From Pseudomonadota bacterium (GTDB lineage Bacteria > Pseudomonadota > Gammaproteobacteria > Burkholderiales > Rhodocyclaceae): DNA of 64,000 bases. Numbering within the stretch: the stretch's first letter is position 1; each line of letters begins with the position of its first letter. Location of the stretch: assembly GCA_018262235.1 (NCBI GenBank), contig JAGTRY010000002.1, positions 1 to 64,000 on the forward strand, read 5' to 3'. Below are positions 26,998-52,809 of this stretch, one piece after another. The notes under the pieces are model-generated. The model was given only the letters and a program-made list of their open reading frames with translations. It was not told the origin of the DNA and ran no database searches. The position numbers and the translations under genes are program-made.

Positions 26998-27004
26998 GCC
27001 TGCC

Positions 27005-28339: not shown

Positions 28340-28636
28340 ATGCATACCCTGCCCCTGTCCATCCCGGCCGATCATCCGGCTTTCGCGGGCCATTTCCCGG
28401 GGCGTCCCATCGTGCCCGGCGTGGTCCTGCTCGACCAGGCCCAGTTGCTGATCGAAGCGGCCACGCAACGCCGCATCCGCGGCATCGCCATGGCCAAGTT
28501 CCTCAGCCCGGTGAGCCCCGGCGAGGCTTTGTGGCTGGACTATGATCCCGCTGCATCCGGCGTGCGCGGCGAGATCCGTGCGGCAGACCGCAAGGTGGCC
28601 AGCCTGCGTTTCACCCTGATGGATCAGGCCGCATGA
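28340..28636 (+). CDS. Hotdog-fold 3-hydroxyacyl-ACP dehydratase-like
   Basis: HPAFAGHFPGRPIVPGVVLLDQAQLLIE. Confidence 0.85.
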   Translation: MHTLPLSIPADHPAFAGHFPGRPIVPGVVLLDQAQLLIEAATQRRIRGIAMAKFLSPVSPGEALWLDYDPAASGVRGEIRAADRKVASLRFTLMDQAA

Positions 28637-29577: not shown

Positions 29578-30151
29578 ATTCCGACACATCCTGGCCGCCC
29601 TGCTCACCGGCCTGCTCGCGGCCAACAGCCTGGCAGCCGACTGGCAGATCAACACGCTGATGCAGCAGCTGGCCCTGAGCAAGAGCGGGCACGCTTCCTT
29701 CGTCGAGAAGAAGTACATCGGCATCGTCGACAAACCAGTCGTCTCCTCCGGCGAGCTGTTCTTCACGGCCCCCGACAAGCTGGAGAAACGCACCCTCAAG
29801 CCGCGCGCCGAAAGCCTGGTTCTCGATGGCCAGCGCCTGACCATCGACCGCCCCGACAAGGCACGCCTGAGTCTGAATCTGCAGGATTATCCGGAAGCCG
29901 CCGCCTTCGTCGAAAGCATCCGGGGCACACTGGCCGGCGACAAATCGGCACTGGAAAAGGTCTACCGGCTCACCCTGAATGGCACACAGGAAAAGTGGCA
30001 ACTGATCCTGCTGCCAAAGTATTCGCGCATGAGCGATCTGGTCTCCCGCATCGTCGTCAATGGTACCCAGGGCGAAATCCGGCGCATCGACTTCGACCTG
30101 CCGGATGGTGACCGCTCCGAGATGCTCGTCACCAAGGTGGCTGCCCAGTAA
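29564..30151 (+). CDS. LolA-like outer-membrane lipoprotein carrier homologue
   Basis: Signal peptide; FVEKKYIGIVDKPVVSSGELFFTAPDKLEKRTLKPRAESLVLDGQRL...LTLNGTQEKWQLILLPK. Confidence 0.82.
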   Translation: MIKPEFRHILAALLTGLLAANSLAADWQINTLMQQLALSKSGHASFVEKKYIGIVDKPVVSSGELFFTAPDKLEKRTLKPRAESLVLDGQRLTIDRPDKARLSLNLQDYPEAAAFVESIRGTLAGDKSALEKVYRLTLNGTQEKWQLILLPKYSRMSDLVSRIVVNGTQGEIRRIDFDLPDGDRSEMLVTKVAAQ

Positions 30152-32493
30152 TGAACCGTCGTCTGCTACCGCTCGCCCTCTGGTTTCTCGCCCTCGCCGC
30201 CTGCATCGCGGTGATCGCGCAGACCCGCTTTGTGGCGGACCTGACGGCATTCATGCCGCGGGCGCCGAATGCCCGCCAGCAGATGCTCATCGAACAGCTG
30301 CGCGACGGCATCATCGCTCGTCTGATCATGGTCGGGATCGAAGGGGGCGACGCCGCCGAGCGGGCCCGCCTGTCCCGCGAACTGGCCGCGCGCCTGCGGA
30401 CCGATCCCGCCTTCATCGGCGTGCAGAACGGCGAAGCCGCCACCGAAGCACGCGACCGTGCGTACTTCTTCGACAACCGCTACCTCCTCAGCCCTGCCGT
30501 CACGGCGGAACGCTTCAGCGCCGAAGGCTTGCAGGGAGCCATCGAACGCTCGCTCGAAGCCCTCTCCGGCAATGCCGGTCTGATGCTGAAAAAGCTGCTG
30601 CCGCATGACCCGACCGGCGAGACCCTGAGCCTGCTGGAGCAATTCTCCGGCGACAATCATCCCCGCCAGCTGGAAGGCGCCTGGGCCTCGCGCGATGGCA
30701 CACGCGCCCTGCTGCTGATCCAGACTGGCGCCGAAGGCTCGGACACCGATGCCCAGGCCCGGGCCCTGGACAGCATCCGCAGCGCCTTCGCGCACATCCC
30801 CGGGCGTGCAGCGGACACCCGTCTGCTCATGAGCGGCACGAGCGTGATGTCGGTCGCCTCGCGCGAGCGCATCCAGGGCGACATCCATCGCCTTGCGCTG
30901 TTCAGCACGGTGCTGGTCATCGGCCTGCTGCTCACCATCTACCGTTCGCCACGCCTGCTGATCCTGGGCCTGCTGCCGGTGGCTTCGGGCGTCCTCGCCG
31001 GGGTGAGTGCCGTCAGCCTGAGCTTCGGCAACATCCACGGCCTGACCCTGGCCTTCGGCAGCACCCTGATCGGCGAATCGGTGGATTACTCGATCTACCT
31101 GTTCATCCAGCGCGCGGCCGGCATCGAAGCCCGCCGCTTCTGGCGCACCATGGGCCTCGGCGTATTGTGTTCGCTGGCCGGTTTCTCCGTCCTGCTGGTC
31201 TCCGGCTTCCCCGGTCTGGCGCAGCTGGGCGTGTACTCGATTGCCGGTCTGATCGCCGCGGCCCTGACTGCCCGCTATGTGTTGCCCGGCCTGATGCCGC
31301 AGCAACTCAAGCTGCGCGATCTCGCCGGCCCGGCCCGTCAGGTCGACCGCGCCTTCCGTTTCGCCCGCCACCTGCGCCCGCTGCTGCTGGTCGCCGTGGT
31401 CAGTGCCGGCGTCTGGGTTGCCTGGCAGGGCGATGCGATCTGGAATCGCCAGCTCAACGCCCTCAGCCCGGTCACGCCGGCAGAGCAGGCGCTGGATCTG
31501 TCGCTGCGCAACGAGATGGGCGCACCGGACATGCGCTACATCGCCGCGCTCGCCGCGCCGGATTCCGAAACCGCCCTGCAAGCTGCCGAAGCCCTGGGTG
31601 CGGTGCTGCAAGCCCAGGTCGCCGCGGGCAAGCTGGCCGGCTTCACCTCGCCCGCGCAATTCCTGCCGAGCCAGCAGGTCCAGGCCGCGCGCCGTGCCGC
31701 CCTGCCGGACGAAGCCACGCTGCGCGCCCGTCTCGCCAAGGCGCTGCGCGACCAGCCCATCCAGCCCGCACGCCTGGAAGGCTTCATCACCGATGTGCAG
31801 AACACCCGCCAGCACGCCTTGCTCACCCGCAAGGATCTCGCCGGCACATCTGCCGCGCTGGGCGTCGATTCGCTGCTGGTGCAACGCGCCCATGACGTGC
31901 TGGTGCTGGTCCCGCTGCGTGCGCCCGCCGGTCAGGAACTCATCGACATCCCGGCCCTGGATGCGGCCATCCACGCGGCCGGCCTCAAGGAGGTCACCGT
32001 GCTGGACATCCTCGAAGAATCGACCAGCCTGTTCTCCAGCTATCTCAACGAGGCCAAGCTGCTGGTCGGCGGCGGCATGCTCGTGATCTTCCTGCTCCTG
32101 CTGTTCGCCTTGCGTTCCCTGCCCCGCGCCTTGCGTGCCACCGCGCCACTGGCCTGCGCGGTGATCGGTGTGACGGCCGGCCTGCTCCTGTGCGGCATCA
32201 CGCTGACCATCCTGCATCTGATCGGGCTGTTGCTGGTGGTCGCCATCGGCCGCAACTACACGCTGTTCTTCGACGCGGGCAGCCACACCGGCAACCCGGC
32301 GCAGCAACGCCAGGTACAGATTTCCATCGTGGTGGCGAACCTCACGGCAGTGGGCAGCTTCGGCGTCCTCGCCCTGTCGGAAGTCCCCGTACTCTCGTAT
32401 CTGGGCAGCACCGTCGGCCCCGGCACTTTCCTCGCCCTCGTTTCCGCGGCAATCCTCGCCAGCAAGGCTCCGGCAGATGCGCACGCTGACTGA
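30151..32493 (+). CDS. MMPL/RND-family exporter
   Basis: 780 aa, two TM blocks; SFGNIHGLTLAFGSTLIGESVDYSIYLFIQ. Confidence 0.88.
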   Translation: MNRRLLPLALWFLALAACIAVIAQTRFVADLTAFMPRAPNARQQMLIEQLRDGIIARLIMVGIEGGDAAERARLSRELAARLRTDPAFIGVQNGEAATEARDRAYFFDNRYLLSPAVTAERFSAEGLQGAIERSLEALSGNAGLMLKKLLPHDPTGETLSLLEQFSGDNHPRQLEGAWASRDGTRALLLIQTGAEGSDTDAQARALDSIRSAFAHIPGRAADTRLLMSGTSVMSVASRERIQGDIHRLALFSTVLVIGLLLTIYRSPRLLILGLLPVASGVLAGVSAVSLSFGNIHGLTLAFGSTLIGESVDYSIYLFIQRAAGIEARRFWRTMGLGVLCSLAGFSVLLVSGFPGLAQLGVYSIAGLIAAALTARYVLPGLMPQQLKLRDLAGPARQVDRAFRFARHLRPLLLVAVVSAGVWVAWQGDAIWNRQLNALSPVTPAEQALDLSLRNEMGAPDMRYIAALAAPDSETALQAAEALGAVLQAQVAAGKLAGFTSPAQFLPSQQVQAARRAALPDEATLRARLAKALRDQPIQPARLEGFITDVQNTRQHALLTRKDLAGTSAALGVDSLLVQRAHDVLVLVPLRAPAGQELIDIPALDAAIHAAGLKEVTVLDILEESTSLFSSYLNEAKLLVGGGMLVIFLLLLFALRSLPRALRATAPLACAVIGVTAGLLLCGITLTILHLIGLLLVVAIGRNYTLFFDAGSHTGNPAQQRQVQISIVVANLTAVGSFGVLALSEVPVLSYLGSTVGPGTFLALVSAAILASKAPADAHAD

Positions 32494-33151
32494 TTGCCTC
32501 GCGTCGCGCCCGGACACGTTGCTGGTGCTGCTGCCCGGCGCCCACACCGAGCTGGAGGATTTCGCCCGCCATGGCTTCATCGAGGCCGTGCGCAGTCGCG
32601 ACATCGAAGCCGACATCCTGGTCGCCGACCTGAATTACACCCATGTCATGGCGCGGACGGTCGCCAGCACCCTGCATGAACGGGTGATCCTGCCGGCACG
32701 GCAGGCAGGCTATCGAGACATCTGGCTGGCCGGGATCTCGCTCGGCGGTCTGAATGCCTTGCTGTATGCCGCGGAACACGCCGCCGGCCTGGCCGGCATC
32801 CATCTGCTCGCGCCTTATCCCGGCACCGCCGACATCGTTGCCGAAATCCGCACGGCAGGTGGCCCGCACGCCTGGGCACAAACGCCGGCAGCCGAGCTCG
32901 GTGATGAACGCGTCATCTGGCGCTGGCTGGTCGCGCAGCAAGCGGCCGATTCGCCCCTGCCGGTGAGTTTTGGTTGCGGCAGCGAAGACCGTTTCATCCG
33001 CAACCAGCGTCTGCTCGCCGACTTGCTGCCAGCCGAGCGCGTGACGTATCAGCCCGGCGGCCATGACTGGCCGGTCTGGCGGACACTCTGGTCTGCCTGG
33101 CTGGAAGAGGCGCCGCTGCCTTGCCGCGCAGCCATCGGAGCGTGCGGATGA
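32477..33151 (+). CDS. Alpha/beta hydrolase-like protein
   Basis: DIWLAGISLGGLNALLYAAEH (GxSxGG elbow), VSFGCGSEDRFI, GGHDW. Confidence 0.78.
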   Translation: MRTLTDCLASRPDTLLVLLPGAHTELEDFARHGFIEAVRSRDIEADILVADLNYTHVMARTVASTLHERVILPARQAGYRDIWLAGISLGGLNALLYAAEHAAGLAGIHLLAPYPGTADIVAEIRTAGGPHAWAQTPAAELGDERVIWRWLVAQQAADSPLPVSFGCGSEDRFIRNQRLLADLLPAERVTYQPGGHDWPVWRTLWSAWLEEAPLPCRAAIGACG

Positions 33152-33954
33152 AGCCATCCCGGTCCTGGCGCCCGTCGCCCTTCCTCCTGCTCTCCGTGCT
33201 GATCCATGCCGGCGCGCTTGCGCTGTGGTACTTCCACCCGGCAACCTGGCCATGGGCACTCGGGATTTTGCTGACCAGCCACGCCAGTGTCGTGGCGGCG
33301 GGTCTGCTGCCACGCAGCCGTCTGCTCGGCCCCAACCTCACCCGTCTGCCAGCCGCCAGCAGGGCCCGCGGCGAAGTCGCCCTCACGATTGATGACGGGC
33401 CCGATCCCGAAGTGACGCCACGCGTGCTGGAAATCCTTGCCCGCCACGGCGCACGGGCCAGCTTCTTCTGCATTGGCGAACGTGCGGCGGCCCATCCCGA
33501 ACTCATCCGCGCCATCGTTGCGGGCGGACACCGCATCGAGAACCACGGCCAGCATCACCGCAAACACGCTTCGTTCTACGGCCCGGGCGCCTGGCTGCAC
33601 GAAGTCGGCGAAGCGCAAGCCACCCTGGCCCGCCTGAGCGGACAGCTGCCCTGCCATTTCCGGGCGCTGGCCGGCTTGCGCAATCCCTTTCTCGACCCGG
33701 TCCTGCGTCGTCTCGACATGCGTCTGGCAAGCTGGACACGCCGCGGTTACGACACCCGGAGCGGAGACGCCGACTGTGTCTTTGCACGCCTGACCCGGCA
33801 GCTTGCCGCTGGCGACATCCTGTTGCTGCACGATGGCAATGCAGCCCGCACGGCCACCGGCGAAGCGGTGATCCTGGCCGTGCTGCCACGCCTGCTTGAA
33901 CTGCTGGCCGCGCGCCAGCTGACTCCCGTTTCCTTGCCCGTCGATCCGTCATGA
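33148..33954 (+). CDS. Polysaccharide deacetylase (NodB-domain) family protein, membrane-anchored
   Basis: EVALTIDDGPDPEVTPRVLEILARHGARASFFCIGERAAAHPELIRAIVAGGHRIENHGQHH; N-terminal hydrophobic helices. Confidence 0.88.
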   Translation: MKPSRSWRPSPFLLLSVLIHAGALALWYFHPATWPWALGILLTSHASVVAAGLLPRSRLLGPNLTRLPAASRARGEVALTIDDGPDPEVTPRVLEILARHGARASFFCIGERAAAHPELIRAIVAGGHRIENHGQHHRKHASFYGPGAWLHEVGEAQATLARLSGQLPCHFRALAGLRNPFLDPVLRRLDMRLASWTRRGYDTRSGDADCVFARLTRQLAAGDILLLHDGNAARTATGEAVILAVLPRLLELLAARQLTPVSLPVDPS

Positions 33955-34715
33955 AGCGTTCCCTGAAAAAGCAGCTCATCCATCTCGCCACCCTGCCCTT
34001 CAAGTCCGTCGGCATCGTCCATTACTACTGGGGACACGGCAAACTCGGCGGGGACCCGATCTTTGCCGCACTGCTCGACGAGCAGATCTTCCCGTCGGAT
34101 GCGCGCATCATCGATCTGGGCTGCGGCCGGGGCTTGCTCGCAGCGTGGTTCCTCGCGGCCGAGAAGCTCTTCCTGGACGGCGGCTGGCCTGCGGATGCCG
34201 CACCGCCCCCGACCGGCCTGCGTTTTCGCGGGCTGGAATTGATGGGGCGCGAAGCCGAGGCCGGCAACCGGGCGCTGCAGCCTATCTATCCGGGCCGGGC
34301 GAGCCTCGCCCAGGGGGACTTGCGCCAAGCTGACCTGAGCCAGCTCGATGTGGTGGCAATTCTCGATGCCCTGCATTACGTGAACTACGCCGAACAGGAT
34401 GTGGTCCTCGACCAGATCCGTGCGGCCCTCGGCCCCGGCGGTCTGTTCCTGACCCGTGTCGGCGATGCCGGAGCCGGTTTGCGCTTCTTCCTGAGCCAGA
34501 TCGTCGACCGCAGCATCTCTTTCGTTCAGGGCCACCGCCTGCCACGCATGTGGTGCCGGCCGATCCAGGAATGGGTCCGGATCCTCGAAGCGCGCGGTTT
34601 TGAAGTCCGCACCCAGCCCATGAACGGCGCCAATCCGTTTGCCAACATCATGCTGGTGGCCAAATTGCCGGGACACCCGGGCGAGCACACGGGGAACCCG
34701 GCCCGCATCGGTTAA
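33951..34715 (+). CDS. SAM-dependent methyltransferase
   Basis: DARIIDLGCGRGLLAAWFLA...VAILDALHYVNYAEQDVVLDQIRAALGPGGLFLTRVGD. Confidence 0.85.
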   Translation: MKRSLKKQLIHLATLPFKSVGIVHYYWGHGKLGGDPIFAALLDEQIFPSDARIIDLGCGRGLLAAWFLAAEKLFLDGGWPADAAPPPTGLRFRGLELMGREAEAGNRALQPIYPGRASLAQGDLRQADLSQLDVVAILDALHYVNYAEQDVVLDQIRAALGPGGLFLTRVGDAGAGLRFFLSQIVDRSISFVQGHRLPRMWCRPIQEWVRILEARGFEVRTQPMNGANPFANIMLVAKLPGHPGEHTGNPARIG

Positions 34716-34746
34716 AATCCAGCCTGAATTTTCATCTGGAGTCCCT

Positions 34747-35940
34747 GTGCACGCCCTGCGACTTTCTTCCTACACCCTGATCAGCGCACTGGGTGCCGGT
34801 CTGGCGCCGACACTGGCTGCGCTGCGCGCACAACGCAGCGGGCTGGCGCGCACGCATTGGGAAACCGTCGATATCGACACCTGCATCGGCGAAGTGCCGG
34901 GCCTCGATGATTTCAGCGTGCGCAGCGATCTGGCGCAATTCGATTGCCGCAACAACCGCCTGGCCCAACGCGCCCTCGAAACCGATGGTTTCAGCCAGGC
35001 CGTGCAGGCGGCCATCGGCCGGTACGGTGCCCGCCGCGTCGGCATCTTTCTGGGGACCAGCACCTCGGGCATCCTCAGCAGCGAAGTGGCCTATCGCCAG
35101 CGCGACCCGGAAACCGGTGCACTCCCCGCCGACCACGATTATCACCACACGCAGAACAGCTACTCGATTGCCGATTTCGTGCGCCACTATTTCGCCCTGA
35201 GCGGCCCGGCCTTCGCGATCTCCACGGCCTGTTCGTCGAGCGCCAAGGTCTTCGGCAGTGCCCAGCGCATGATCGCCGCCGGGCTGATCGATGCGGCCAT
35301 CGTGGGCGGCGTCGATTCCCTGTGCCTGACCACGCTCTACGGCTTCAACTCGCTGCAACTGGTGTCGGCCAACGCCTGCAAGCCTTTCGATGCGCATCGC
35401 GATGGCATCTCGATCGGCGAAGCAGCCGCCTTCATCCTGCTCGAACGTGGCGAGCAGGCACAGCCCGGCGACATCGTCCTGAGCGGTGTCGGCGAATCGA
35501 GCGATGCACACCACATGTCCTCGCCCCATCCCGAGGGGCTCGGCGCCCGTCTGGCCATGCAAGCAGCACTCGACATGGCCGGCCTCGCGGCGACGGACAT
35601 CGACTACATCAACCTGCACGGCACCTCGACGCCGAGCAACGACGCCGCCGAAGACAAGGGCGTGAGCGCCGTGTTCGGCACGCAGACACCGTGCAGCTCG
35701 ACCAAGGGCCATACCGGTCACACCCTGGGCGCGGCCGGTGGCGCGGAAGCCATCATCTGTGCCCTGGCCCTGCAGCACGACTTCGCGCCGGGCGGCGTCG
35801 GCACCACCGAGCTTGATCCGCGTCTAGCCAGCCATTACCTGCTTGCCAATCTCGATGCGCCGATGCGCCACGTCCTGTCGAACTCCTTCGGCTTCGGCGG
35901 AAGCAACTGCAGCCTCATTCTCAGCAAGGTGACGGCATGA
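34747..35940 (+). CDS. Beta-ketoacyl-ACP synthase (KAS I/II)
   Basis: AISTACSSSAKVF (active Cys), INLHGTSTPSNDAAE, STKGHTGHTLGAAGGAEAI, NSFGFGGSNCSLI; probable GTG start. Confidence 0.92.
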   Translation: MHALRLSSYTLISALGAGLAPTLAALRAQRSGLARTHWETVDIDTCIGEVPGLDDFSVRSDLAQFDCRNNRLAQRALETDGFSQAVQAAIGRYGARRVGIFLGTSTSGILSSEVAYRQRDPETGALPADHDYHHTQNSYSIADFVRHYFALSGPAFAISTACSSSAKVFGSAQRMIAAGLIDAAIVGGVDSLCLTTLYGFNSLQLVSANACKPFDAHRDGISIGEAAAFILLERGEQAQPGDIVLSGVGESSDAHHMSSPHPEGLGARLAMQAALDMAGLAATDIDYINLHGTSTPSNDAAEDKGVSAVFGTQTPCSSTKGHTGHTLGAAGGAEAIICALALQHDFAPGGVGTTELDPRLASHYLLANLDAPMRHVLSNSFGFGGSNCSLILSKVTA

Positions 35941-36731
35941 GCGCCCTGAAACTCTATCTGGATGGCATCGGCCTGTGCGGCCCTGGCATGGCTGGCTGGG
36001 AAGCCAGTCGCGCCATTTTGGCGGGCAGTTCAGCGCTCGTTCTGGCCCCCACCGTGCTGCCAGCGGCCGAAGCCCTGCCGAGTGCCGAACGCCGGCGTGT
36101 CGGCGTGCCGATCAAACTCTCGATGGCCATCGGCTTCGAAGCGGTGCGCCATGCCGGCGCCGATGCCGCCACCCTGCCCGCGGTGTTTTCCTCCACGGAT
36201 GGCGACTGCGACAACTGCCACGCCATCCTCGAAACCCTCGCCTCGGAGGATCGCCAGATCTCGCCGACGCGTTTCCACAACTCGGTGCACAACGCCCCCT
36301 CTGGTTACTGGGGCATCGCCACCGGCTGCCACGCGCCCTCAACCAGCCTGTGCGCGCTGGATGCCACCTTCGGCGCCGGCCTGCTCGAAGCGGCAACACA
36401 GGCACTGGCCAGTCAGCAGCCCTGCCTGCTGCTGGCCTATGACACGCCCTTCCCGGAGCCACTGGCAAGCCTGCGCCCGATTCCTTACCCGCTGGGCATT
36501 GCATTGCTGCTACGGCCCGAACGCAGTGCCGCCAGCTTCGCCAGCCTGAGCATCGCACTCGGTGACGAAGCGCCCGATGTCTGCGCCGACGCGACGCTCG
36601 AAGGCCTGCGCCAGAGCATCCCCACCGCGCGCGCCCTGCCTCTGCTGCAACTGCTGGCACGTGGCGAAACCGGCCGGGTGGTGATCGACTACCTGCACGA
36701 CCTGAGCCTCGCCATCGAGGTTGGTGCGTGA
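35937..36731 (+). CDS. Beta-ketoacyl synthase-like chain-length-factor protein
   Basis: FHNSVHNAPSGYWGIATGCHAPSTSLCALDATFGAGLLEAA; short KAS homologue without the canonical TACSSS active site. Confidence 0.8.
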   Translation: MSALKLYLDGIGLCGPGMAGWEASRAILAGSSALVLAPTVLPAAEALPSAERRRVGVPIKLSMAIGFEAVRHAGADAATLPAVFSSTDGDCDNCHAILETLASEDRQISPTRFHNSVHNAPSGYWGIATGCHAPSTSLCALDATFGAGLLEAATQALASQQPCLLLAYDTPFPEPLASLRPIPYPLGIALLLRPERSAASFASLSIALGDEAPDVCADATLEGLRQSIPTARALPLLQLLARGETGRVVIDYLHDLSLAIEVGA

Positions 36732-37168
36732 GCCACGCGCTCAACCGTGCGGAGATCAGCGCGCGCATCCCGCATTCCGCTGACATGTGCCTGCTCGATG
36801 GCGTCGTGAGCTGGTCCGATACGGCCATCCATTGCGTCGCCAGCAGCCAGCAATTGGCGACGAATCCGCTGCGCGCAGGTAGCCGGCTTGGGATTGCCAA
36901 TGGCATCGAATACGCTGCCCAGGCGATGGCCGTGCATGGCGCACTGACCGCGAACAAAGACGAAGCCCCGGGCGCCGGCTTTCTGACCAGCGTGCGCGAA
37001 GTCGAATTCCACACCGACCGTCTCGACGGGCACGCAGCACTCGACATCCACGCCGAGCGTCTCTCGGGCGATGGCAATGCCATGCTCTACAGTTTCCGCC
37101 TGAGTACCGCCGGCACGCTACTGCTCGCCGGGCGCGCGAGTGTGATGCTGGATGCGGACAGATCGTAA
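36728..37168 (+). CDS. ApeP-like hotdog dehydratase
   Basis: ISARIPHSADMCLLDGVVSWSDTAIHC...LGIANGIEYAAQAMAVHGAL. Confidence 0.82.
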   Translation: MSHALNRAEISARIPHSADMCLLDGVVSWSDTAIHCVASSQQLATNPLRAGSRLGIANGIEYAAQAMAVHGALTANKDEAPGAGFLTSVREVEFHTDRLDGHAALDIHAERLSGDGNAMLYSFRLSTAGTLLLAGRASVMLDADRS

Positions 37169-37264: not shown

Positions 37265-37984
37265 ATGAAACGTGCCCTCATCACCGGCGGCAGTGGCGCC
37301 ATCGGCGCAGCCATCTCGCGCAAACTTGCCGAGGATGGTTTGCACGTCATCATCCACGCCAACAAGAACCTCGCTGCCGCTGAACATCTAGCAGCGGCAT
37401 TGCGCGCACAAGGGTTCTCTGCCGAAGCGCTGCAGTTCGATGTTTCCGATGGTGCGGCCGCCCAGGCCGCGCTCGAATCGGTTCTGGCGGCGGGACCGAT
37501 CCAGGTGCTGGTCAACAACGCCGGCATCCACGACGATGCGGTATTCCCCGGCATGCGCCGCGAGCAGTGGGACAGCGTCATCGACGTATCGCTCAACGGG
37601 TTCTTCAACGTCACCCAGCCGCTCACGATGCCGATGATCCGCTCGCGCTGGGGACGCATCATCACCATCTCGTCGATTGCCGGCCTTACCGGCAACCGCG
37701 GCCAGGTAAATTACGCGGCCGCCAAGGGCGCCTTGCATGCCGCTACGAAATCGCTCTCTCTGGAGCTGGCCAGCCGCAGCATCACCGTGAATGCCGTGGC
37801 CCCCGGCATCATCACCTCCGACATGACCAGGGACGTGTTCGACGAAACCGCGATCAAACAGCTCGTTCCCATGAAGCGTGCCGGCAAGCCGGAAGAAGTG
37901 GCCGGACTGGTCGCCTTCCTCGCCTCGGATGCCGCGGCCTACATCACCGGACAGATCATCTCCATCAACGGCGGCATGATCTGA
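37265..37984 (+). CDS. 3-oxoacyl-ACP reductase (FabG-like SDR)
   Basis: RALITGGSGAIGAAISRKLA; LVNNAGI; SSIAGLTGNRGQVNYAAAKGAL (YxxxK). Confidence 0.93.
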   Translation: MKRALITGGSGAIGAAISRKLAEDGLHVIIHANKNLAAAEHLAAALRAQGFSAEALQFDVSDGAAAQAALESVLAAGPIQVLVNNAGIHDDAVFPGMRREQWDSVIDVSLNGFFNVTQPLTMPMIRSRWGRIITISSIAGLTGNRGQVNYAAAKGALHAATKSLSLELASRSITVNAVAPGIITSDMTRDVFDETAIKQLVPMKRAGKPEEVAGLVAFLASDAAAYITGQIISINGGMI

Positions 37985-38106
37985 AAGCGACACTTCCGTT
38001 AATAATTTGAGAATCCGGCGCCGGAAGAAGCTTTGGCGCGCTTATCCCATTACAATATGCGCGAAAAACTGAAGTACCCATGCAACCTATCAAGGAGTCC
38101 GCATCG

Positions 38107-38733
38107 ATGAACATGAAATTTGTGCTGGCAGCAAGCCTGACCATCCTGAGTTCTGCCGCCTCGGCAGAAGTCTATCTGGGCGTTGGCGGTGGCATCACCC
38201 GCACCAATGCAGCCGAGCGTCTGACCCAGACCTTCGCGGACTACGCCACGGTCGACAAGAAAGACACCAGCAAAGGCACTTACATCCTGTTCGGCGGATA
38301 TGCCTTCAACAAGAATTTTGCACTCGAAGCCAGCTACATCGATTTCGGCAAATACAAGGCCTCGGGTCATGATGCATCGGGGACAAGCATCAGTGATTCC
38401 CTCGACGCCAAGGCTTTCTCCATCGGCGCGGTAGGCAGTTACCCATTGGGTGACAGCTTCAGCCTGGATGGCAAACTCGGCGTGGGCCTGGTTTCGCAGA
38501 AGTACAGCTGCCTGGATCTGGCCTGCTCGGTGCTGCCGGAGAAAACCACCAAGAAAGCCGTGATCATGGGCGCCATTGGCGCGCATTGGTACTTCAGCAA
38601 GCATGTTGCCTTGCGTGCGGCTTACGAGCATTTTGGCGGCGCCGACTATGAAATCGAACGCACCGACGGCACCAAGTTCAAGAAGACGGCGGACTACGGT
38701 CTGCTGTATGCCGGTGCTGAAGCCCGCTTCTGA
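38107..38733 (+). CDS. OmpA/OmpW-like outer membrane beta-barrel protein
   Basis: Signal peptide MNMKFVLAASLTILSSAASA; alternating beta strands (YLGVGGGITRTN, FALEASYIDFGKYKA), C-terminal AEARF. Confidence 0.82.
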   Translation: MNMKFVLAASLTILSSAASAEVYLGVGGGITRTNAAERLTQTFADYATVDKKDTSKGTYILFGGYAFNKNFALEASYIDFGKYKASGHDASGTSISDSLDAKAFSIGAVGSYPLGDSFSLDGKLGVGLVSQKYSCLDLACSVLPEKTTKKAVIMGAIGAHWYFSKHVALRAAYEHFGGADYEIERTDGTKFKKTADYGLLYAGAEARF

Positions 38734-38809: not shown

Positions 38810-39583
38810 TTATTCGGGCTTGGTCGCCTGATATTCGGCGAGAATGGAAAGCCCCTTGTGCTCGATATGCCGGCGCACCGCGATGAAGCCGGCGGCTTCC
38901 AGGGTCGCGACCACCTGCTTGGGCGGCACGCAGGCCTCGATGGTGTCCCAGTAATAACGCCAGAGCTGGCGGGTGTTCTTCTGGCGGCCGACCAGCAAGG
39001 CAAGCAAGGGCACGAAGCCTTTCATGTAAACCTTGAGCAGGAACTTGCCCCAGGCACTTTCCGGACAGGTGATCTCCAGCAAGCAGAGCCGGGCCCCCGG
39101 TTTCATGACGCGATGGAATTCGGCGAAAGCGGCAGACAGGTCACTGATATGACGCAGCGCATAGCCCATGCTGAGGAAGTCGAAATGCGCGTCCGGGAAA
39201 GGAATCGCTTCGGCGCGTCCTTCAACCAGTCCCACTCCGGCCGGCACCTTGGCATTGGCCATCATGCCGGGACTGGGGTCAACGCCAGTAACCAGCGTTG
39301 CATCACCCACGATGCGTGCTGCGCCGCGCGCCACAAGTCCGGTGCCCACGCCCACATCAACAATGCGCATACCCGCTTTGAGGCCGGCACGTTCGAGCGC
39401 CTCGCTGCGATACTGAACCCCCGTCCCGAACCCCAGGATGTGTTCCATGCGGTCGTAGTCTTCGGCCGTGGTGTCGAACATCTTGCGGACGAATCCAGCG
39501 CGCTCCTGCTCGCTGGCGTAGTAATCGGTAAGCGGGACGTGGGGGGCCTGGGCTGCGGGCAGATTCCTGGAATCGGCGTTCAT
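38810..39583 (-). CDS. UbiE-like class I methyltransferase
   Basis: VRKMFDTTAEDYDRMEHILGFGTGVQYRSEALERAGLKAGMRIVDVGVGTGLVARGAAR; start reset to MNADSRN at 39583. Confidence 0.88.
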   Translation of the reverse strand: MNADSRNLPAAQAPHVPLTDYYASEQERAGFVRKMFDTTAEDYDRMEHILGFGTGVQYRSEALERAGLKAGMRIVDVGVGTGLVARGAARIVGDATLVTGVDPSPGMMANAKVPAGVGLVEGRAEAIPFPDAHFDFLSMGYALRHISDLSAAFAEFHRVMKPGARLCLLEITCPESAWGKFLLKVYMKGFVPLLALLVGRQKNTRQLWRYYWDTIEACVPPKQVVATLEAAGFIAVRRHIEHKGLSILAEYQATKPE

Positions 39584-40347
39584 GGGGTCGTACCGGTGAG
39601 TTTGCGAAAGAGGAGCTGGGGCAGCCGCAGGACAAAGCCCAGCATCAGCCGGATGTGCATCCAGGTGAGCAGGCGGTTGTCGCGCCAGTAATTGAAATGG
39701 GAGACGCCGCCTTCTGCGGGGCTCAGGTATTTGACGGGTGCCGCCAGATTGAGCGGCCGCACGCCACGCCAGCACAGGCGCACCACGGCTTCGGGATCGA
39801 AATCGAAGCGCCGCATCCAGCGCTGGCCACGCATGACCGCACGCAAGGGCTCGACCGGATAGACACGAAAACCGTACAGCGAATCGCCGATGCCGCTCCA
39901 CAGGGTTTCGAGGTTGGCCCACCAGTTTGAAATCTTGCGGCCCTTCACGCGCAGTGCCGGCGCACTGGCATCGAAGACCGGCACCCCCAGCACCATCGCA
40001 CCGGGCGCCTGCTGTGAAGCCGCCATGAACGCAGGAATCAGGTCAGCAGGGTGCTGGCCATCCGAATCCATGCACAAGACATGGGAGAAGCCCAGCCGCG
40101 CGGCTTCGTCCAGCCCATGCAGCACCGCCGCACCTTTGCCGCTGTTCTCGGCCAGGACCAGCACACGCAGCGCCGGATCTTCCACCGCCATCGCCAGCAG
40201 GGTCTGCGTGGTGCCGTCGGTACTCCCATCGACCACGACCCACACGGGCGCCCACTGCGCCCGCGCCGCGCGCACGGTCTCGAAGACCTTGGCGCCGGGG
40301 TTATAGCTGGGAATCAGGACGAGGTGGCTCGTGGACAGGGCGGACAT
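39580..40347 (-). CDS. Glycosyltransferase family 2
   Basis: LVLIPSYNPGAKVFETVRAARAQWAPVWVVVDGSTDGTTQTL...SHVLCMDSDGQHPADLIP. Confidence 0.88.
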   Translation of the reverse strand: MSALSTSHLVLIPSYNPGAKVFETVRAARAQWAPVWVVVDGSTDGTTQTLLAMAVEDPALRVLVLAENSGKGAAVLHGLDEAARLGFSHVLCMDSDGQHPADLIPAFMAASQQAPGAMVLGVPVFDASAPALRVKGRKISNWWANLETLWSGIGDSLYGFRVYPVEPLRAVMRGQRWMRRFDFDPEAVVRLCWRGVRPLNLAAPVKYLSPAEGGVSHFNYWRDNRLLTWMHIRLMLGFVLRLPQLLFRKLTGTTP

Positions 40348-40351
40348 CGGT

Positions 40352-41116
40352 TCAGACCTTGGAGGAGGACGCACACAATTCGCGTGCGAAATAATCCTGC
40401 AGGGTATGCGTAAACGCTTCGGGGTTGTCGGGCGGGTCGAAACGTTCGCCCAGCCGCACGCGGAAATGCATCGGCATCTCCGGACGTTTGAACAGGGGCC
40501 AGCCCTTGCCGAGGAAACGCGTGTCCTGCTCGATCAGCACGGTCTGGATCGGCACGCCAGCACGATGCGCAACATAGGCCACGCCAGCGCGGAAATTGTT
40601 GAGCCGCGGCGGCGCTTCGGTGCGCGTCCCCTCGGGGAACAGCAGCAACTGGCTGCCCTGATGCAGCTCCGCCACGGCCAGGTTGATCGAGCCGATGAAC
40701 CAATCGTTGCGAACGTAACCGGCCAGGCGCGAACCGGCGCCCCACAGGATGTTGTCGAGCAGGCTGGCCTTGAGCACACAAGCCACGTTCGGCAGGCGCG
40801 AGATGACCATCACGGCATCCAGCAAGCCCGGATGATTCGGGGCGATGATCAGCGGACCGGCATTGCGCAGGGCATCCAGTGCCTTGAGGTCGAAACGCCC
40901 GACGCAGATCACTTTCAGCCACCAGATATAGGCACGGAACCCCAGGCAGGCGACCCAGCGACCCAGCCAGATGCCGCGCCGGCCATGCAGGACCAGATTC
41001 AGCGGCAAGGTCGCCAGGGCCCAGAGCACACAGCCGATGGCCAGCGTGGCCAAGCCGACCCGCAGCGCAAGATAGGCATGCGCCCGGCGCAGTGAACGGT
41101 ACAAGCAAGCGAACAT
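40352..41116 (-). CDS. 1-acyl-sn-glycerol-3-phosphate acyltransferase-like (PlsC domain)
   Basis: PLIIAPNHPGLLDAVMVISRL (NHxxxxD variant); LLLFPEGTRTEAPPRL. Confidence 0.87.
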   Translation of the reverse strand: MFACLYRSLRRAHAYLALRVGLATLAIGCVLWALATLPLNLVLHGRRGIWLGRWVACLGFRAYIWWLKVICVGRFDLKALDALRNAGPLIIAPNHPGLLDAVMVISRLPNVACVLKASLLDNILWGAGSRLAGYVRNDWFIGSINLAVAELHQGSQLLLFPEGTRTEAPPRLNNFRAGVAYVAHRAGVPIQTVLIEQDTRFLGKGWPLFKRPEMPMHFRVRLGERFDPPDNPEAFTHTLQDYFARELCASSSKV

Positions 41117-41124
41117 GAAAACCT

Positions 41125-41970
41125 TCAGTCCTCGCCCACGTTAACCAGCTCGGAGGATTTGGCAAAGGTCCAGGTCAGGCCAAAGCCATACGTCACATAG
41201 GATGAGCGTTTGACCAGCGGGCTGTCTTCAAACACCGCGCCGCGCAAGCTATCCCACCGGGCATAAGCGCCCACCCAGAGATCCCCGTAACGGCGCGACA
41301 GCGACGCCAGGAACTGGCTTCCAGCATAACCCCCGCGTGCCTGGTAGGCGGGCCGGTCGGCGCGCGCGTACTGCTGATCCACCGAATAAAAATAGGCGTT
41401 CTGCTGGCGGTCGGCAAACATCGGGCCGGCAACCAGCCCGAGATTCCAGCCTTCCTTCGAGCCGGCAGGCTGACCGAGCCCCAGAAAATCGATGTTCAGC
41501 TTGGGTGTGAACACCCAGCCTGCTACGCGCGGATTGGTGCGCGCCTCAATGGCTCCACGCACCGGCAGAAGCAGTTTGAGTCGGGTGCTGCCGCCCTCGC
41601 TGCGCCAGAGGTTGAAGTCCAGCGACGGGCCCAGCTCGATCATCGGCTTGATGTCGGGCATGTCTTCGCGTGCCCGGTTGTTCTTGCTGCGGACCGGTGG
41701 CGTTGCCCCCAGACTCAGGTTCAGTTCGACCCGGTCCGAATCGAACAGGGTGGCACGCACCCCGTTACGGTCGGCCTTGAGCCATTCGAAACGGTAGGCC
41801 ACATAAGGGAAAGGCAGCAGGTAATTGTGCGTTTCATCCGAGCCCCGGTAGTCCGGCAGGCTCACGCCACCAACGCCCATGCCCAGTTCCCAACGCGGCA
41901 ATTGCTCGGCAAGACCAAGCGTGGGCGCCAGGGCCAGCCAGCCAAGGCAGCAGCAACGTCGCAGGTTCAT
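41125..41970 (-). CDS. MipA/OmpV-family outer membrane protein
   Basis: WELGMGVGGVSLPDYRGSDETHNYLLPFPYVAYRFEWLKADRNGVRATLFDSDRVELNLSLG; signal peptide. Confidence 0.87.
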   Translation of the reverse strand: MNLRRCCCLGWLALAPTLGLAEQLPRWELGMGVGGVSLPDYRGSDETHNYLLPFPYVAYRFEWLKADRNGVRATLFDSDRVELNLSLGATPPVRSKNNRAREDMPDIKPMIELGPSLDFNLWRSEGGSTRLKLLLPVRGAIEARTNPRVAGWVFTPKLNIDFLGLGQPAGSKEGWNLGLVAGPMFADRQQNAYFYSVDQQYARADRPAYQARGGYAGSQFLASLSRRYGDLWVGAYARWDSLRGAVFEDSPLVKRSSYVTYGFGLTWTFAKSSELVNVGED

Positions 41971-42989
41971 GGGTTTTCCTTCGGGGGCAATGCATCCCGG
42001 AAACCGAAGGCCTCGATTTCCACCAGGAGTTCCGCACGGCAGATGTCGGCTTGCAGGTAGATCGCCTCCAGCCCCTCGCCCAGACGTTCGGCCAGGATTC
42101 CCGCCACAACCGGCAGGTCCACAGCATGACGTACAAATACCTTCAGTATCAGGTCACGTGCCGAGAATCCACCGAGTGCAGACTTGAGATTGGCCTGCTC
42201 GACCACCACGTCGATATTGCGCAGGGTTTCCTCGGTCTGGGCCGCCACGTCGCCGGGATGCAGACTCTCGTGCCCGACAATGCTTGCCGTGCCGGAAATG
42301 AACAGCACTTCCTGACCGGGCAGGGTCAGCAGACTCGCGCGCGAGAAAGTCGGGCTGCGCGGGCCGTAGCGCTGCGGATACCGATAGGCACTGATCTGCC
42401 GCGGGTTCTCGATAGCCAAGGGCGCCACGCGCGAAGCCAGGAAATACAGTATGAAATCGCCTGAGGAAGAGCCCAGCGCACACGCCGAGGGCGAACCTGC
42501 CAGCCAGGCCTGACCTGCGGCGATGAAGGCATCCTGCCGGCCGATATTGAACTGGCGATAGCGCTCCAGGCCACCGCCATCCAGATTGATGCGCGGCAGG
42601 TAATTCCAGCAACGCGCCAGATACGCAAAACCCGTGGTCTGCAAAGCCGCAAAGACGGCCTCATAGGCCGCCTGGCTCAACTGCTGCAGCACACTGACAT
42701 TGCCCGCCGCGGAAAAATCCGCCTCGCGCAGGCAGATGCTGCCAAACAAGACATGTTCGTTGTGGCACCAGGACAATGCGCCCTGCTGCCCCTGCACAAA
42801 GGGGCCCGAGGAAAGCCAGGTCGTGTACGTGGCACCGCCGGCCGGCAGCACGGGCAAGGGCGCGTTGACCGCCGCCTGGTCCTGCGCCAGCGGCACGCCA
42901 TAGCAGACGGAACCGAGCAGATCGGTACCGGCCTTTGCCGGCGCGATATCCTGCAGGTCCAGCAAACGCGAAGGATGCAAGGTGCTCAC
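41967..42989 (-). CDS. FkbO/Hyg5/XanB2-family chorismatase (pteridine-dependent deoxygenase-like)
   Basis: ARCWNYLPRINLDGGGLERYRQFNIGRQDAF...PSACALGSSSGDFILYFLASRVAPLAIENPRQISAYRYPQRYGPRSPTFSRA...ISGTASIVGHESLHPGDVAAQTEETLRNID. Confidence 0.85.
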   Translation of the reverse strand: MSTLHPSRLLDLQDIAPAKAGTDLLGSVCYGVPLAQDQAAVNAPLPVLPAGGATYTTWLSSGPFVQGQQGALSWCHNEHVLFGSICLREADFSAAGNVSVLQQLSQAAYEAVFAALQTTGFAYLARCWNYLPRINLDGGGLERYRQFNIGRQDAFIAAGQAWLAGSPSACALGSSSGDFILYFLASRVAPLAIENPRQISAYRYPQRYGPRSPTFSRASLLTLPGQEVLFISGTASIVGHESLHPGDVAAQTEETLRNIDVVVEQANLKSALGGFSARDLILKVFVRHAVDLPVVAGILAERLGEGLEAIYLQADICRAELLVEIEAFGFRDALPPKENP

Positions 42990-44239
42990 GCCACAGCCTT
43001 GAATGCCAGCACGGCATTGCTGCCGCCAAACGCAAAGGAATTGCTCAGCGCCGCCCTCAGCGGTACGTCATGCAGGCCGGTGCCCATCACATGGTGCACA
43101 CCCTGACAATCAGCAGCGACCTCTTCCAGATGCGCCGTCGGCGGCACTTCGCCACGCGCCAGGGCCAGCACGGTGATCAGTGCTTCCATGGCGCCGGTCG
43201 CGCCAAGCAGATGGCCGTGCATCGATTTGGTCGCACTCACCAGCAGGCTTGCCGCGTGTGCGCCGAAGATCTGGCGCAAGGCTTCGATCTCGGTCGGATC
43301 GCCCTCGCGGGTGGCCGTACCATGCGCATTCACATAGCCGACCTCGGCCGGATCCAGCCCGGCTTCGCGCAGCGCCAGCTTCATGGCGCGGGTCTGACCA
43401 TAGGCATCCGGCTTGACCAGATGGGTGTGATCACAGCTCTGCCCGTAACCGGCCAACTCGCAATAGATGCGCGCTCCGCGCGCCACGGCGTGATCCCAGT
43501 CTTCCAGAATCAGTGCCGCGCCGCCTTCCCCCAGCACCAGCCCGGTCCGCCCGGCCTGGAACGGACGACACGCCCGATAGGCGGTTTCGGCATTACCCTG
43601 AGCGACCACGCGCATGGATTCCCACGCCCGCATCACCGAGAACGACAGCGGGGCTTCCGAGCCGCCGGCGACCACCAGCTGGGATTCGCCGGCCTGGATC
43701 CGGCGCATCGCTTCGCCAATGGCTACCGCGGAGGATGCGCAGGCAACGGAATAGGAAAGACAGGCGCTGCCCAATCCCAGCGAAATCGCCACGTGGGACG
43801 CCGCTGCGTTGTTCATCGCCAGCACCACGGAGAGCGGATGCGCGCGATCCTTGTTGTGTACGTAGAAGTCGGTGTAGCCCTTCTCGAAGGTCAGCGTGCC
43901 GCCCACGCCGGTCCCCCAGGAGACCCCGAACTCATCGGAACCGCCTCCCTGGCGCGGCAGGCCGGCATCGTCCCAGGCCGTGAACGCCGCCGCCACGCCA
44001 AGCTGGCTGTAGCGATCCGTCACGGCCGCCAGCGGGCGCCCGAGCACCACCTCGGCATCGAAGTATGGGCAGCTCACCGCCGGCTGGGCCAGGGGTGAGG
44101 GCGATGCGGGGTGATGGTAGAGGTTCACGGCAGATTCGCCACGCATCAGTCGCGCGAAGAAATCCTGCGTATCGCCCCCGAAGGGATTGACCAGCCCGAC
44201 CCCCGTCACCGCCACGCGGCGGCAGCTCGCTTCAGTCAT
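42986..44239 (-). CDS. Beta-ketoacyl-ACP synthase (KAS I/II)
   Basis: SYSVACASSAVAIGEAMRRIQAG (active Cys), VNAHGTATREGDPTEIEAL, SATKSMHGHLLGATGAMEAL, NSFAFGGSNAVL. Confidence 0.93.
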   Translation of the reverse strand: MTEASCRRVAVTGVGLVNPFGGDTQDFFARLMRGESAVNLYHHPASPSPLAQPAVSCPYFDAEVVLGRPLAAVTDRYSQLGVAAAFTAWDDAGLPRQGGGSDEFGVSWGTGVGGTLTFEKGYTDFYVHNKDRAHPLSVVLAMNNAAASHVAISLGLGSACLSYSVACASSAVAIGEAMRRIQAGESQLVVAGGSEAPLSFSVMRAWESMRVVAQGNAETAYRACRPFQAGRTGLVLGEGGAALILEDWDHAVARGARIYCELAGYGQSCDHTHLVKPDAYGQTRAMKLALREAGLDPAEVGYVNAHGTATREGDPTEIEALRQIFGAHAASLLVSATKSMHGHLLGATGAMEALITVLALARGEVPPTAHLEEVAADCQGVHHVMGTGLHDVPLRAALSNSFAFGGSNAVLAFKAVA

Positions 44240-44471
44240 TACTGGCCGGTTTGAGCTTTTCGAAAATCTCGATCAGTTCGGCCACGGTTTCCGGACGCGG
44301 CAGATCGTCGGGCATGCGCACGCCGAACTTGTCCTCCATGTCGAACATCAGGTCGAGCAGCGTCAGGGAGTCGACACCGATATCCTCCAGCCGGCTTTCC
44401 GGATTGACTTCCTCCGGCGGATTGGTGACGCGGCGTTTAATGAATTCGCGCAGTAGTTCAAGCGTGTCCAT
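44232..44471 (-). CDS. Acyl carrier protein
   Basis: MDTLELLREFIKRRV...LEDIGVDSLTLLDLMFDMEDKFGV. Confidence 0.92.
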   Translation of the reverse strand: MDTLELLREFIKRRVTNPPEEVNPESRLEDIGVDSLTLLDLMFDMEDKFGVRMPDDLPRPETVAELIEIFEKLKPASND

Positions 44472-44575
44472 GGCAAACCTGTTGGGCAAAGTTACATAAT
44501 TTTAATCTAGGCACGACCTGCCCGGTGGAACTCTTGTGCTATGGCACTGTCGCGCCTGTGGTTTTGTTGCGTGTC

Positions 44576-49998: not shown

Positions 49999-52353
49999 CT
50001 ACTTCTGCATGCTCACCTGTACCGGGCCTGCAGCGAGCCTCAGCGTCACAAGGCCATCGGGGGCCTGCTGCCAGCTTTGCGCTCCGGTCACGCGTGTCAC
50101 CACAAATCCCGGCATGATCTGCAAAGTCACGGCGTCCCCCGGCCGGGCCACAAGCGCCACTTCCTGAGGGGTGCGAATTCCTTCCAGGCTGATCGGAGCG
50201 CCCGACACCAGCGTGACGGGACCAGCCAGACGTGTCGCTTCGATCAGCGTGAAACGCAGCCCATCCGCATGCGTCACAAAGCTCGCCGCCATGCCATCGA
50301 GTTTCCAGCCTGCGGCGTCGACCTGCTTTTCAGATTCACGCGCCATGAGCACGATTTCATCACTTCCCTGCCCGGAAAGCCGCATGGCGTAACCCTTCTC
50401 AGCCGGGATGCTCACCGAGGCAGGCGCAGCACCGTTCTCCCCGGAGGCCTTCCACGGATACAGCAGGGTCAGGAAATCCTGTTGTTTCGAGCGTGCGTTC
50501 GTCTCGGCTGTCACATGCCATTCGTTCGGCATTTTGGTGCGATAGCTCTCGATCACTGGCGGCTCGAAAGCATCGGTCTGAGAGAAGACGAGCGCGCCCA
50601 CACCGGGTTGCAGGAAGCGTACGGTCAGGCGTGCATTCCCCTGTTGCTGGACGATCTCGTTGCGCTCCGGGCTGAGCGTCATCGGGCTGCGCGCGTGGAG
50701 TTGCCATTGGTATTTCACCGCTTCGGGTGCGGCATCTTCATCGAGGATCACGAAGTAACGCCGGTTCACGAAGAACACGTGGCGCAAGGCACGCTCGGCC
50801 CGCGCACCGTAGGCCCGCTGCGCATTCCCCGTGGCGAAGCTGTAACCGGCGCCATCGGCAAAACGCGTGATCGTGCCGGTGGCCGTTGCGTCCTTGATGC
50901 GCTGACCTTCGCCATCGAAGAGGACGGCGTTCTTGGCCTTGGTCTGGCGGCTCCAGCCGACTTGGTGCGGACTGTCGTAGAACTCGCGGTAGCCGGAGTT
51001 GATCGCCAGCGGCTGGCCAAAGGCGTTGAGCACGAAACTGTTCTGATCGGCGAAACCATGGCTGGCCGAACCCTGCGGGCTGGAGCGGAAGCCGAGCATG
51101 ATGTCGTTGGCCGCATCGCCGAGCGCAGAGTGCATCGCCACCACACCGATATCATCAAAGTACCGGCTCTGCGGCAACTCCGTGAGTTTCACTTCCGGCA
51201 GCTTCGCTTGTGCTGTGCGGAAGCGCTGCAGGAAGCTGTCTGCGCCATCGTAGGTGTAGTAATTGAAGCTGGCCGGGGGCTTCTGGCGCAACGCTTTGGC
51301 ATACGCCAGCGGATAGGGGTCGGCATTCAGCACGGCGAACTTTTCCATCATCAGGGCGATGCTGCCGCTGGGCCCCATGATGTTGGTGAGATCGCCAAAC
51401 GATGAGCCCGGATAGGGCATCAGGCTGTAAATGCCGAAATAGGGCGTGTTGCGCCAGAAGGGACGCGCCAGCGGCTCCTTGAAACCAAACAGCGCCATGC
51501 CTTCGAGGAAACGCTGATGCTGGCTGATGCCGGTGTTCCAGTAGTTGAGCCCCTCAGCCCAGCCACCGGCCGGGCCGCCCCACACCGGGAACTGGCGCAG
51601 GTAGTACTCGTAGCTCCAGGCCAGCCAGCCCGGCGCGCGCTTCGTCTCGTGAAACAGCGCCAGCCCGCCCTGCCCGAGCGTGGAGATGAAGCGCATCGGA
51701 TGGCTCAGCGAATTGTCCGGCGCGGTCGGGCGGGTCAGCGTGAACTTCGGCTGGATCTGGCTGGCGAGCACTTCCATGCGCGCAATCAGTGCCTTGCCAA
51801 CCGTGGCACGCTCCTCCGGCGTGAGCGCGGCATATGCCCAGTCGTAGGCAAAAATCATGGGGCGCAACGACTGGATGAAGAGCTCGTCGTTGGTGCGGTA
51901 AGTTTCGCGCGTGATATCCCAGCTCGCCAGATGCATCAGCCAGCGCGCCGCCTCGCGGCCATAGGCGGGGTCTTCGGTGAGCAGCCAGGCCAGCGCATAG
52001 CGCTGCGCCCAGGCGGCAGTCTCGTTCGCCGCCTTGTAACCGGCTTCCCACTGTTTCGTACCTTCCAGCGTGCCGTTCCGGGCCGGTTTCGGCTCGGGAA
52101 TCAGCGCGCGACTATCCAGCGGCGGCAGCGCCAGTTTCGCCAGCGCGGCACCATCCGGCTGGCTCGGCAGATCTTTAAGGAAGGCGCGCAACGCGGGCAG
52201 ATCGGCCGGGCGAATCAGCAGGCGCGGATGCTCGTTGGCGAGTGCCGCATTGAATTGCGCCACGCGCCCGGCGACCAGCTCGCCATCGCTTTGCGCCAGT
52301 GCAGGCGCCACCATGGACAGCGTGACCAGCCCCAGCAGGATGAGTTTTTTCAT
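49999..52353 (-). CDS. Heparinase II/III-like (DUF4962-type) polysaccharide lyase, secreted
   Basis: Signal peptide MKKLILLGLVTLSMVAPALA; HPRLLIRPADLPALRAFLKD; GYRSSPQGSASHGFADQNSFVLNAFGQPLAINSGYREFYDSPHQVGWSRQTKAKNAVLFDGEGQ region typical of the family (first residues read GFRSSPQGS). ORF track over-extends the N-terminus. Confidence 0.82.
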   Translation of the reverse strand: MKKLILLGLVTLSMVAPALAQSDGELVAGRVAQFNAALANEHPRLLIRPADLPALRAFLKDLPSQPDGAALAKLALPPLDSRALIPEPKPARNGTLEGTKQWEAGYKAANETAAWAQRYALAWLLTEDPAYGREAARWLMHLASWDITRETYRTNDELFIQSLRPMIFAYDWAYAALTPEERATVGKALIARMEVLASQIQPKFTLTRPTAPDNSLSHPMRFISTLGQGGLALFHETKRAPGWLAWSYEYYLRQFPVWGGPAGGWAEGLNYWNTGISQHQRFLEGMALFGFKEPLARPFWRNTPYFGIYSLMPYPGSSFGDLTNIMGPSGSIALMMEKFAVLNADPYPLAYAKALRQKPPASFNYYTYDGADSFLQRFRTAQAKLPEVKLTELPQSRYFDDIGVVAMHSALGDAANDIMLGFRSSPQGSASHGFADQNSFVLNAFGQPLAINSGYREFYDSPHQVGWSRQTKAKNAVLFDGEGQRIKDATATGTITRFADGAGYSFATGNAQRAYGARAERALRHVFFVNRRYFVILDEDAAPEAVKYQWQLHARSPMTLSPERNEIVQQQGNARLTVRFLQPGVGALVFSQTDAFEPPVIESYRTKMPNEWHVTAETNARSKQQDFLTLLYPWKASGENGAAPASVSIPAEKGYAMRLSGQGSDEIVLMARESEKQVDAAGWKLDGMAASFVTHADGLRFTLIEATRLAGPVTLVSGAPISLEGIRTPQEVALVARPGDAVTLQIMPGFVVTRVTGAQSWQQAPDGLVTLRLAAGPVQVSMQK

Positions 52354-52444
52354 GATTGGCGCGCCCGCGTTGATCGGCAATACGGCCCCGGACAGATCCG
52401 GGCAAGTTACCGGAACAGACTCTACGGGCGTAGCCGTGTGGAAA

Positions 52445-52655
52445 TCAAGCGACCCGGGCGCCGGCCAGCAACAGGAAGCCGGCCGCAACAAACCGTACGC
52501 CGGCAAACACCATCTGCCCGGCAACATCGGGGCGGGCAATATGAAACAAGACGTAGCCTGCTTGATGGCGGGATAAGCACTTCCCCAAAGCAGACCACAG
52601 AAGCTGGCGAGGATGAAGAAAACGACAGGATGGGCCAGAAAGTGTGTCTGCGGCA
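52445..52655 (-). pseudogene. EamA/DMT transporter N-terminal remnant, frameshifted and truncated
   Basis: Frame A: HPVVFFILASFCGLLWGSAYPAIKQ; frame B continues AGYVLFHIARPDVAGQMVFAGVRFVAAGFLLLAGARVA then stop. Together they read as the first two EamA TM segments. Confidence 0.65.
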
Positions 52656-52809
52656 GGGTGGTTCCAAAAAAAATGGGCGGGGGAGACACCCCACCCACGA
52701 GACACAGCAAGAACCAGAGCGATGCGTGAGCTCGTAGTCCTCTGCAACATTGTGGCTGGCGATTTTCATCCTATCAATTGCATTAGTATTGCAATATTGA
52801 TAAGTAAAA

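Follow-up and report, generated by a model that had tools for sequence, protein, structure and literature searches.

Described systems

The closest described relative of the cluster analysed here is the arcuflavin system of Azoarcus sp. BH72, in which two unlinked arc loci, with genes tabulated as arcA-L and arcM-X, make the pigment (PMC3949708). The chorismatase ArcB makes 3-hydroxybenzoate (3-HBA) in vitro; 4-hydroxybenzoate (4-HBA) also appears, non-enzymatically in the purified assay (PMC3949708). The ligase ArcT is loosely specific in vitro, adenylates 3-HBA and does not accept 3-methoxybenzoate, and arcuflavin takes up a fluorinated analogue of 3-HBA and not one of 4-HBA (PMC3949708). 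A second relative is XanB2 of Xanthomonas, linked to xanthomonadin; our enzyme resembles it in its predicted role, that of a 3-/4-HBA chorismatase which supplies an aryl polyene, and the 4-HBA of XanB2 serves ubiquinone. Two further members of the family, Hyg5 (CH-II) and FkbO (CH-I) of Streptomyces, belong to type I PKS contexts.

The window, by which we mean the whole 64,000-nucleotide stretch analysed (contig JAGTRY010000002.1), contains a cluster that closely resembles that of arcuflavin. The idea of a chorismatase as starter source is consequently largely known already, and the variations found here are modest: fused loci, an acyl carrier protein-ketosynthase (ACP-KS) pair replacing the halogenase, and an extra UbiE-like methyltransferase. 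Relatives of its chorismatase point to a betaproteobacterial Uliginosibacterium/Dactylopiibacterium clade as the probable source of the window, a genus for which a limited search of the open-access literature found no aryl polyene reports.

Organisation of the cluster

Pfam scans were run on open reading frames picked by codon-position G+C, and a family genome with an Azoarcus-type arc layout (G026, loci L041 and L093) was used for comparison in place of BH72. The gene order of L041 (FecR-domain protein in the arcL position, KS, N-terminal KS-like protein, dehydratase, ketoreductase, Na/H exchanger, ArgC-like semialdehyde dehydrogenase, glycosyltransferase, acyltransferase, MipA, chorismatase, halogenase) agrees with arcL to arcA in Table 1 of PMC3949708, and L093 carries arcM to arcV in order. 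In the window the pigment genes form one block (26.05-44.5 kb) with two arms, a forward arm at 26.05-37.98 kb and a reverse arm running from 44.49 to 38.81 kb, as follows (percentages are to the comparison loci).

26054-26347, +: acyl carrier protein, ArcV orthologue (PF00550; 67% to L093)
26344-26997, +: ArcU-like protein, function unassigned (36% to L093, equivalent position)
26876-28339, +: AMP ligase and predicted 3-HBA activator, ArcT orthologue (PF00501; 50% to its counterpart at arcT in L093)
28340-28636, +: FabA-like dehydratase, ArcS orthologue (Pfam, L093)
28633-29577, +: lipid A-type acyltransferase, ArcR orthologue (Pfam, L093)
29564-30151, +: LolA-like carrier, ArcQ orthologue (Pfam, L093)
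30151-32493, +: MMPL exporter, ArcP orthologue (Pfam, L093)
32477-33151, +: alpha/beta-hydrolase-like protein, ArcO position (Pfam, L093)
33121-33954, +: polysaccharide deacetylase, ArcN orthologue (Pfam, L093)
33951-34715, +: methyltransferase, ArcM orthologue, candidate head-group O-methyltransferase (Pfam, L093)
34639-35940, +: ketosynthase, ArcK orthologue (Pfam, synteny)
35937-36731, +: N-terminal ketosynthase-like protein, ArcJ orthologue (PF13723, synteny)
36728-37168, +: dehydratase, taken as the ArcI orthologue from its position and similarity (58% to L041; no Pfam match)
37265-37984, +: ketoreductase, ArcH orthologue (Pfam, synteny)
38080-38733, +: OmpA-like gene after the ketoreductase
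38810-39529, -: UbiE-like methyltransferase, absent from the Azoarcus-type arc locus (PF01209, 1.3e-28; distribution)
39580-40374, -: family 2 glycosyltransferase, ArcE orthologue (PF00535; 76% to the L041 arc locus)
40352-41116, -: phospholipid/glycerol acyltransferase, ArcD orthologue (PF01553, synteny)
41125-41970, -: MipA-family outer-membrane protein, ArcC orthologue (PF06629, 2e-41; synteny)
41967-42989, -: chorismatase, ArcB orthologue, 340 aa, A171/G233/C317/E324 (TIGR04444, PF21168, PDB matches, tree)
42986-44239, -: FabF-like ketosynthase upstream of the chorismatase (TIGR03150, 2.2e-116)
44232-44489, -: acyl carrier protein (PF00550)

A reverse-strand frame at 30166-32616 was rejected as spurious, the overlapping forward MMPL gene being the real one. 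To the left the block is flanked by genes for a FabMG-type enoyl-ACP reductase and a phosphoribosyltransferase, and to the right by exodeoxyribonuclease III. In content it fits the arcuflavin/xanthomonadin type of polyene cluster, with chorismatase, AMP ligase, KS pair, ketoreductase, dehydratases, ACP, LolA, MMPL exporter, acyltransferases and glycosyltransferase.

Orthologues of arcB-E, arcH-K and arcM-V thus stand together, and the likeness to Azoarcus BH72, as judged through G026, extends to the divergence of chorismatase-MipA-acyltransferase-glycosyltransferase from ketoreductase-dehydratase-KS_N-KS and to the presence of an arcM to arcV block and a dar cluster within one genome. Unlike in Azoarcus, the two arc blocks are fused, the halogenase, Na/H exchanger and ArgC-like genes are missing from the block, and the additions are the UbiE-like methyltransferase and, upstream of the chorismatase, an ACP-KS pair. 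The pair (42986-44489, -) stands where the Azoarcus halogenase gene arcA would be, and the window's genome has no match to the halogenase family PF04820.

The compared congeners, two betaproteobacterial MAGs and G013 likewise have an ACP and a FabF-like KS directly upstream of the chorismatase (L002, L003 and L054 being among these loci), whereas Azoarcus-type loci have a halogenase gene there. The UbiE-like methyltransferase closes the reverse arm in this genus and in L002, L003 and L046 (45%), and not in the Azoarcus-type locus; it possibly serves ring C-methylation or a second methylation. All compared loci that bear the chorismatase gene keep the order chorismatase-acyltransferase-glycosyltransferase. 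AMP ligase and chorismatase share a contig in congeners G122 and G011, and lie on separate contigs in G074. The chorismatase pigment operon is also retained in L004 and L006, from Candidatus Dactylopiibacterium, a cochineal-associated symbiont lineage.

Arc-type neighbourhoods were absent around the plasmid chorismatase matches inspected (Caballeronia, Streptomyces, Pseudonocardia). One congener (G569, locus L105) encodes a divergent chorismatase-like protein that reaches 29 bits against PF21168; an ABC permease-like frame lies nearby, the 3 kb examined around it contains no arc genes, and the protein possibly represents another chorismatase subtype.

The chorismatase and its subtype

An FkbO/Hyg5/XanB2-like enzyme had been proposed at 41967-42989 (-), between a ketosynthase and an outer-membrane gene, and both identity and setting are confirmed: this is a true FkbO/Hyg5-family chorismatase, and Pfam and NCBIfam matches identify its neighbours as KS and MipA. 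The gene is an intact frame of 340 codons with a GTG start and the codon-position G+C pattern of a genuine gene. Its product matches TIGR04444 ('FkbO/Hyg5 family chorismatase') at 3.8e-69 and 233 bits, under the curated 325-bit cut-off, and PF21168, the N-terminal part of the FkbO/Hyg5/XanB2 architecture, at 5.6e-34, above cut-off; the YjgF/Rid-like C-terminal half gives a weak PF01042 match below cut-off. Structures of Hyg5 (PDB 5ag3, 2.7e-45) and FkbO (PDB 4bps, 1.7e-41) align over about 270 aa, up to residue 327. The best relative found is from Uliginosibacterium sp. 31-16 (76% identity), with others in U. aquaticum and Candidatus Dactylopiibacterium, and the ArcB orthologue in L041 is 44% identical. 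The gene shares 4 bp with each of its neighbours, the upstream ketosynthase gene and downstream mipA, which suggests a single translationally coupled operon.

Hyg5 positions 173, 240 and 327 have been named as CH-II determinants, and Glu 334 as catalytic (PMC7170507). With a nine-residue offset used to convert positions to Hyg5 numbering (173, 240, 327, 334), window residues A171/G233/C317/E324 align with Hyg5 G173/G240/C327/E334; the ArcB orthologue reads A/G/C/E at these positions, Hyg5 G/G/C/E and FkbO G/A/A/E. Across 65 distinct proteobacterial chorismatases, G, C and E are invariant at 240, 327 and 334, the catalytic Glu (E324 in the window) being kept in 65/65. Position 173 is Ala in 61/65, the ArcB orthologue included, and Gly in 5/5 outside sequences (Hyg5, FkbO, Streptomyces, Pseudonocardia and a Caballeronia plasmid). 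In a tree built by a quick method, the window enzyme and the ArcB orthologue fall within this 65-row proteobacterial clade (SH-aLRT 99), which leaves out Hyg5, FkbO and the actinobacterial and Caballeronia enzymes.

An enzyme of FkbO type, which the original prediction had named as the finding that would overturn it, would form a dihydroxycyclohexadienoate of no use to the pigment. FkbO shares family and catalytic Glu with the window enzyme, and overall identity barely separates it from Hyg5 (38% vs 36%). However, FkbO alone among the sequences aligned has Ala at both 240 and 327, where the window enzyme has Gly233 and Cys317, which excludes the FkbO type by active-site comparison; moreover, the gene is part of a pigment operon whose cluster includes an AMP ligase, and we find this reading hardly credible.

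A Hyg5-type enzyme, by contrast, would make 3-HBA alone, leaving the pigment reading unchanged and removing any 4-HBA or ubiquinone link. Hyg5 shares the catalytic Glu, G233 and C317 agree with two of the three CH-II residues (Gly/Gly/Cys), and the fact that 4-HBA arose in ArcB assays even without enzyme (PMC3949708) makes the 4-HBA output of the ArcB type less firm than its 3-HBA. Yet residue 171 is Ala where Hyg5 and the actinobacterial enzymes have Gly, and the tree groups the window enzyme with the ArcB orthologue and apart from Hyg5, so that we consider a Hyg5 type unlikely. The ArcB/XanB2 type (CH-III) is favoured by Ala171, common to 61/65 proteobacterial enzymes and absent from Hyg5, and by the clade shared with the ArcB orthologue, authentic Xanthomonas XanB2 lying outside the alignment. 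According to the authors of PMC3949708, chorismatase products are not accurately predictable by alignment alone; this, the limited identity to the ArcB orthologue (44%) and the TIGR04444 score under cut-off speak against the ArcB/XanB2 reading. The Ala/Gly difference at Hyg5 position 173 sets proteobacterial pigment-type chorismatases apart from Hyg5 and FkbO, and as a correlate of the proteobacterial group it is a candidate determinant that could be mutated.

Starter supply and head group

The question of the starter can be answered for this cluster through the published biochemistry of an orthologue. The chorismatase had been put forward as the probable starter source, and this is supported: by position and sequence it is the orthologue of ArcB, which makes 3-HBA (PMC3949708). 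The suggested head group, 3- or 4-HBA, stands in its first half; 3-HBA rather than 4-HBA is the expected starter, because the 4-HBA analogue was not incorporated in Azoarcus. Another benzoate would in principle be usable, given the loose specificity of ArcT in vitro.

As originally claimed, no aromatic ammonia-lyase lies in the window, and the genome-wide search that the prediction called for gave the same answer: PF00221 has no match in the whole genome (97% complete) or in 7 congeners, while 5 control genomes were positive. A Tyr/Phe ammonia-lyase belonging to that family is thereby removed as a source.

It has also to be considered that 4-HBA or coumarate might come from elsewhere as the starter, with the chorismatase working mainly for ubiquinone. 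The genome has UbiA and no UbiC, and the top NCBIfam match of the AMP ligase is a 4-coumarate-CoA ligase model, although far under cut-off. Such a source is nevertheless very unlikely, given the absence of PF00221 from the genus, the Azoarcus incorporation of a 3-HBA and not a 4-HBA analogue (PMC3949708), and the placement of the chorismatase gene in the compared loci, where it forms part of the pigment operon.

Starter supply by the chorismatase thus remains the preferred reading. The ArcB/XanB2-type enzyme would convert chorismate to 3-HBA and pyruvate, probably with some 4-HBA; the AMP ligase (26876-28339) would activate 3-HBA; and the KS, its KS-like partner, ketoreductase, dehydratases and ACPs would elongate it to an aryl polyene. 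Methylation of the ring by cluster methyltransferases, also foreseen originally, can be narrowed: O-methylation is better assigned, as a candidate role, to the ArcM-like enzyme (33951-34715), which would probably act after activation, because ArcT refuses 3-methoxybenzoate. The enzyme product, 3-HBA incorporation and AMP-ligase activity are Azoarcus results, and we infer equal chemistry in the window's organism.

The predicted pigment

Elsewhere in the genome, contig C148 carries a dar cluster with DarB and a protein in the DarA position. Its StlD/DarB ketosynthase scores 575 bits against a cut-off of 450, and 456 bits with a stricter DarB model, under that model's 550 cut-off; the DarA-position protein beside it is 51% identical to its counterpart in G026, and BtrH-like, ABC transporter, ACP and KS genes complete the locus, as in a dar locus. 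The presence of this cluster leads us to predict an arcuflavin-like polyene-dialkylresorcinol hybrid, in which the polyene acid would probably be esterified to a dialkylresorcinol from the separate dar cluster; the product class would be a methoxyphenyl polyene ester of dialkylresorcinol. We hold the pathway as a whole, from CH-III chorismatase through 3-HBA and methylated aryl polyene to a probable dialkylresorcinol ester, to be very probable.

A possible link to ubiquinone

According to a review, bacteria use either UbiC or XanB2 (PMC8854274). In the window's genome UbiA is present (334 bits) and UbiC (PF04345) was not found, nor was an obvious UbiC gene seen by eye in the 1.5 kb on each side of ubiA; all 6 sampled genomes of the genus, the window's included, have the chorismatase and lack UbiC. 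The presence of UbiA without UbiC means that the window chorismatase may feed ubiquinone too, as XanB2 does in Xanthomonas.

The general rule is not supported in 200 family genomes: by hand tally, a chorismatase occurs in 14/52 UbiC-negative and 32/148 UbiC-positive genomes (Fisher p 0.45), with both enzymes in 32/200 and neither in 38/200. Most genomes lacking both (e.g. G001, G006, G010) still carry UbiA, and a third source of 4-HBA or a divergent UbiC is therefore likely in them. A ubiquinone role for the window enzyme is consequently plausible, the family-wide data lending it no independent support. We tentatively suggest, as somewhat short of an even chance, that in the Uliginosibacterium/Dactylopiibacterium genus UbiC has been lost and the pigment-operon chorismatase is the sole 4-HBA source for ubiquinone. 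If this is true, pigment and respiration depend on one shared chorismatase.

Other genes in the window

A gene at 22610-23692 (+), coding for an HSDR_N (type I restriction) domain, has a third-position G+C of 45%, versus about 75%, and is possibly a recent acquisition. The pigment cluster has polysaccharide-degradation genes, apparently unrelated to it, on both sides: one (15434-18784, +) for a protein that combines pectate lyase and pectinesterase domains, the other (49999-52710, -) for a heparinase II/III-like protein.
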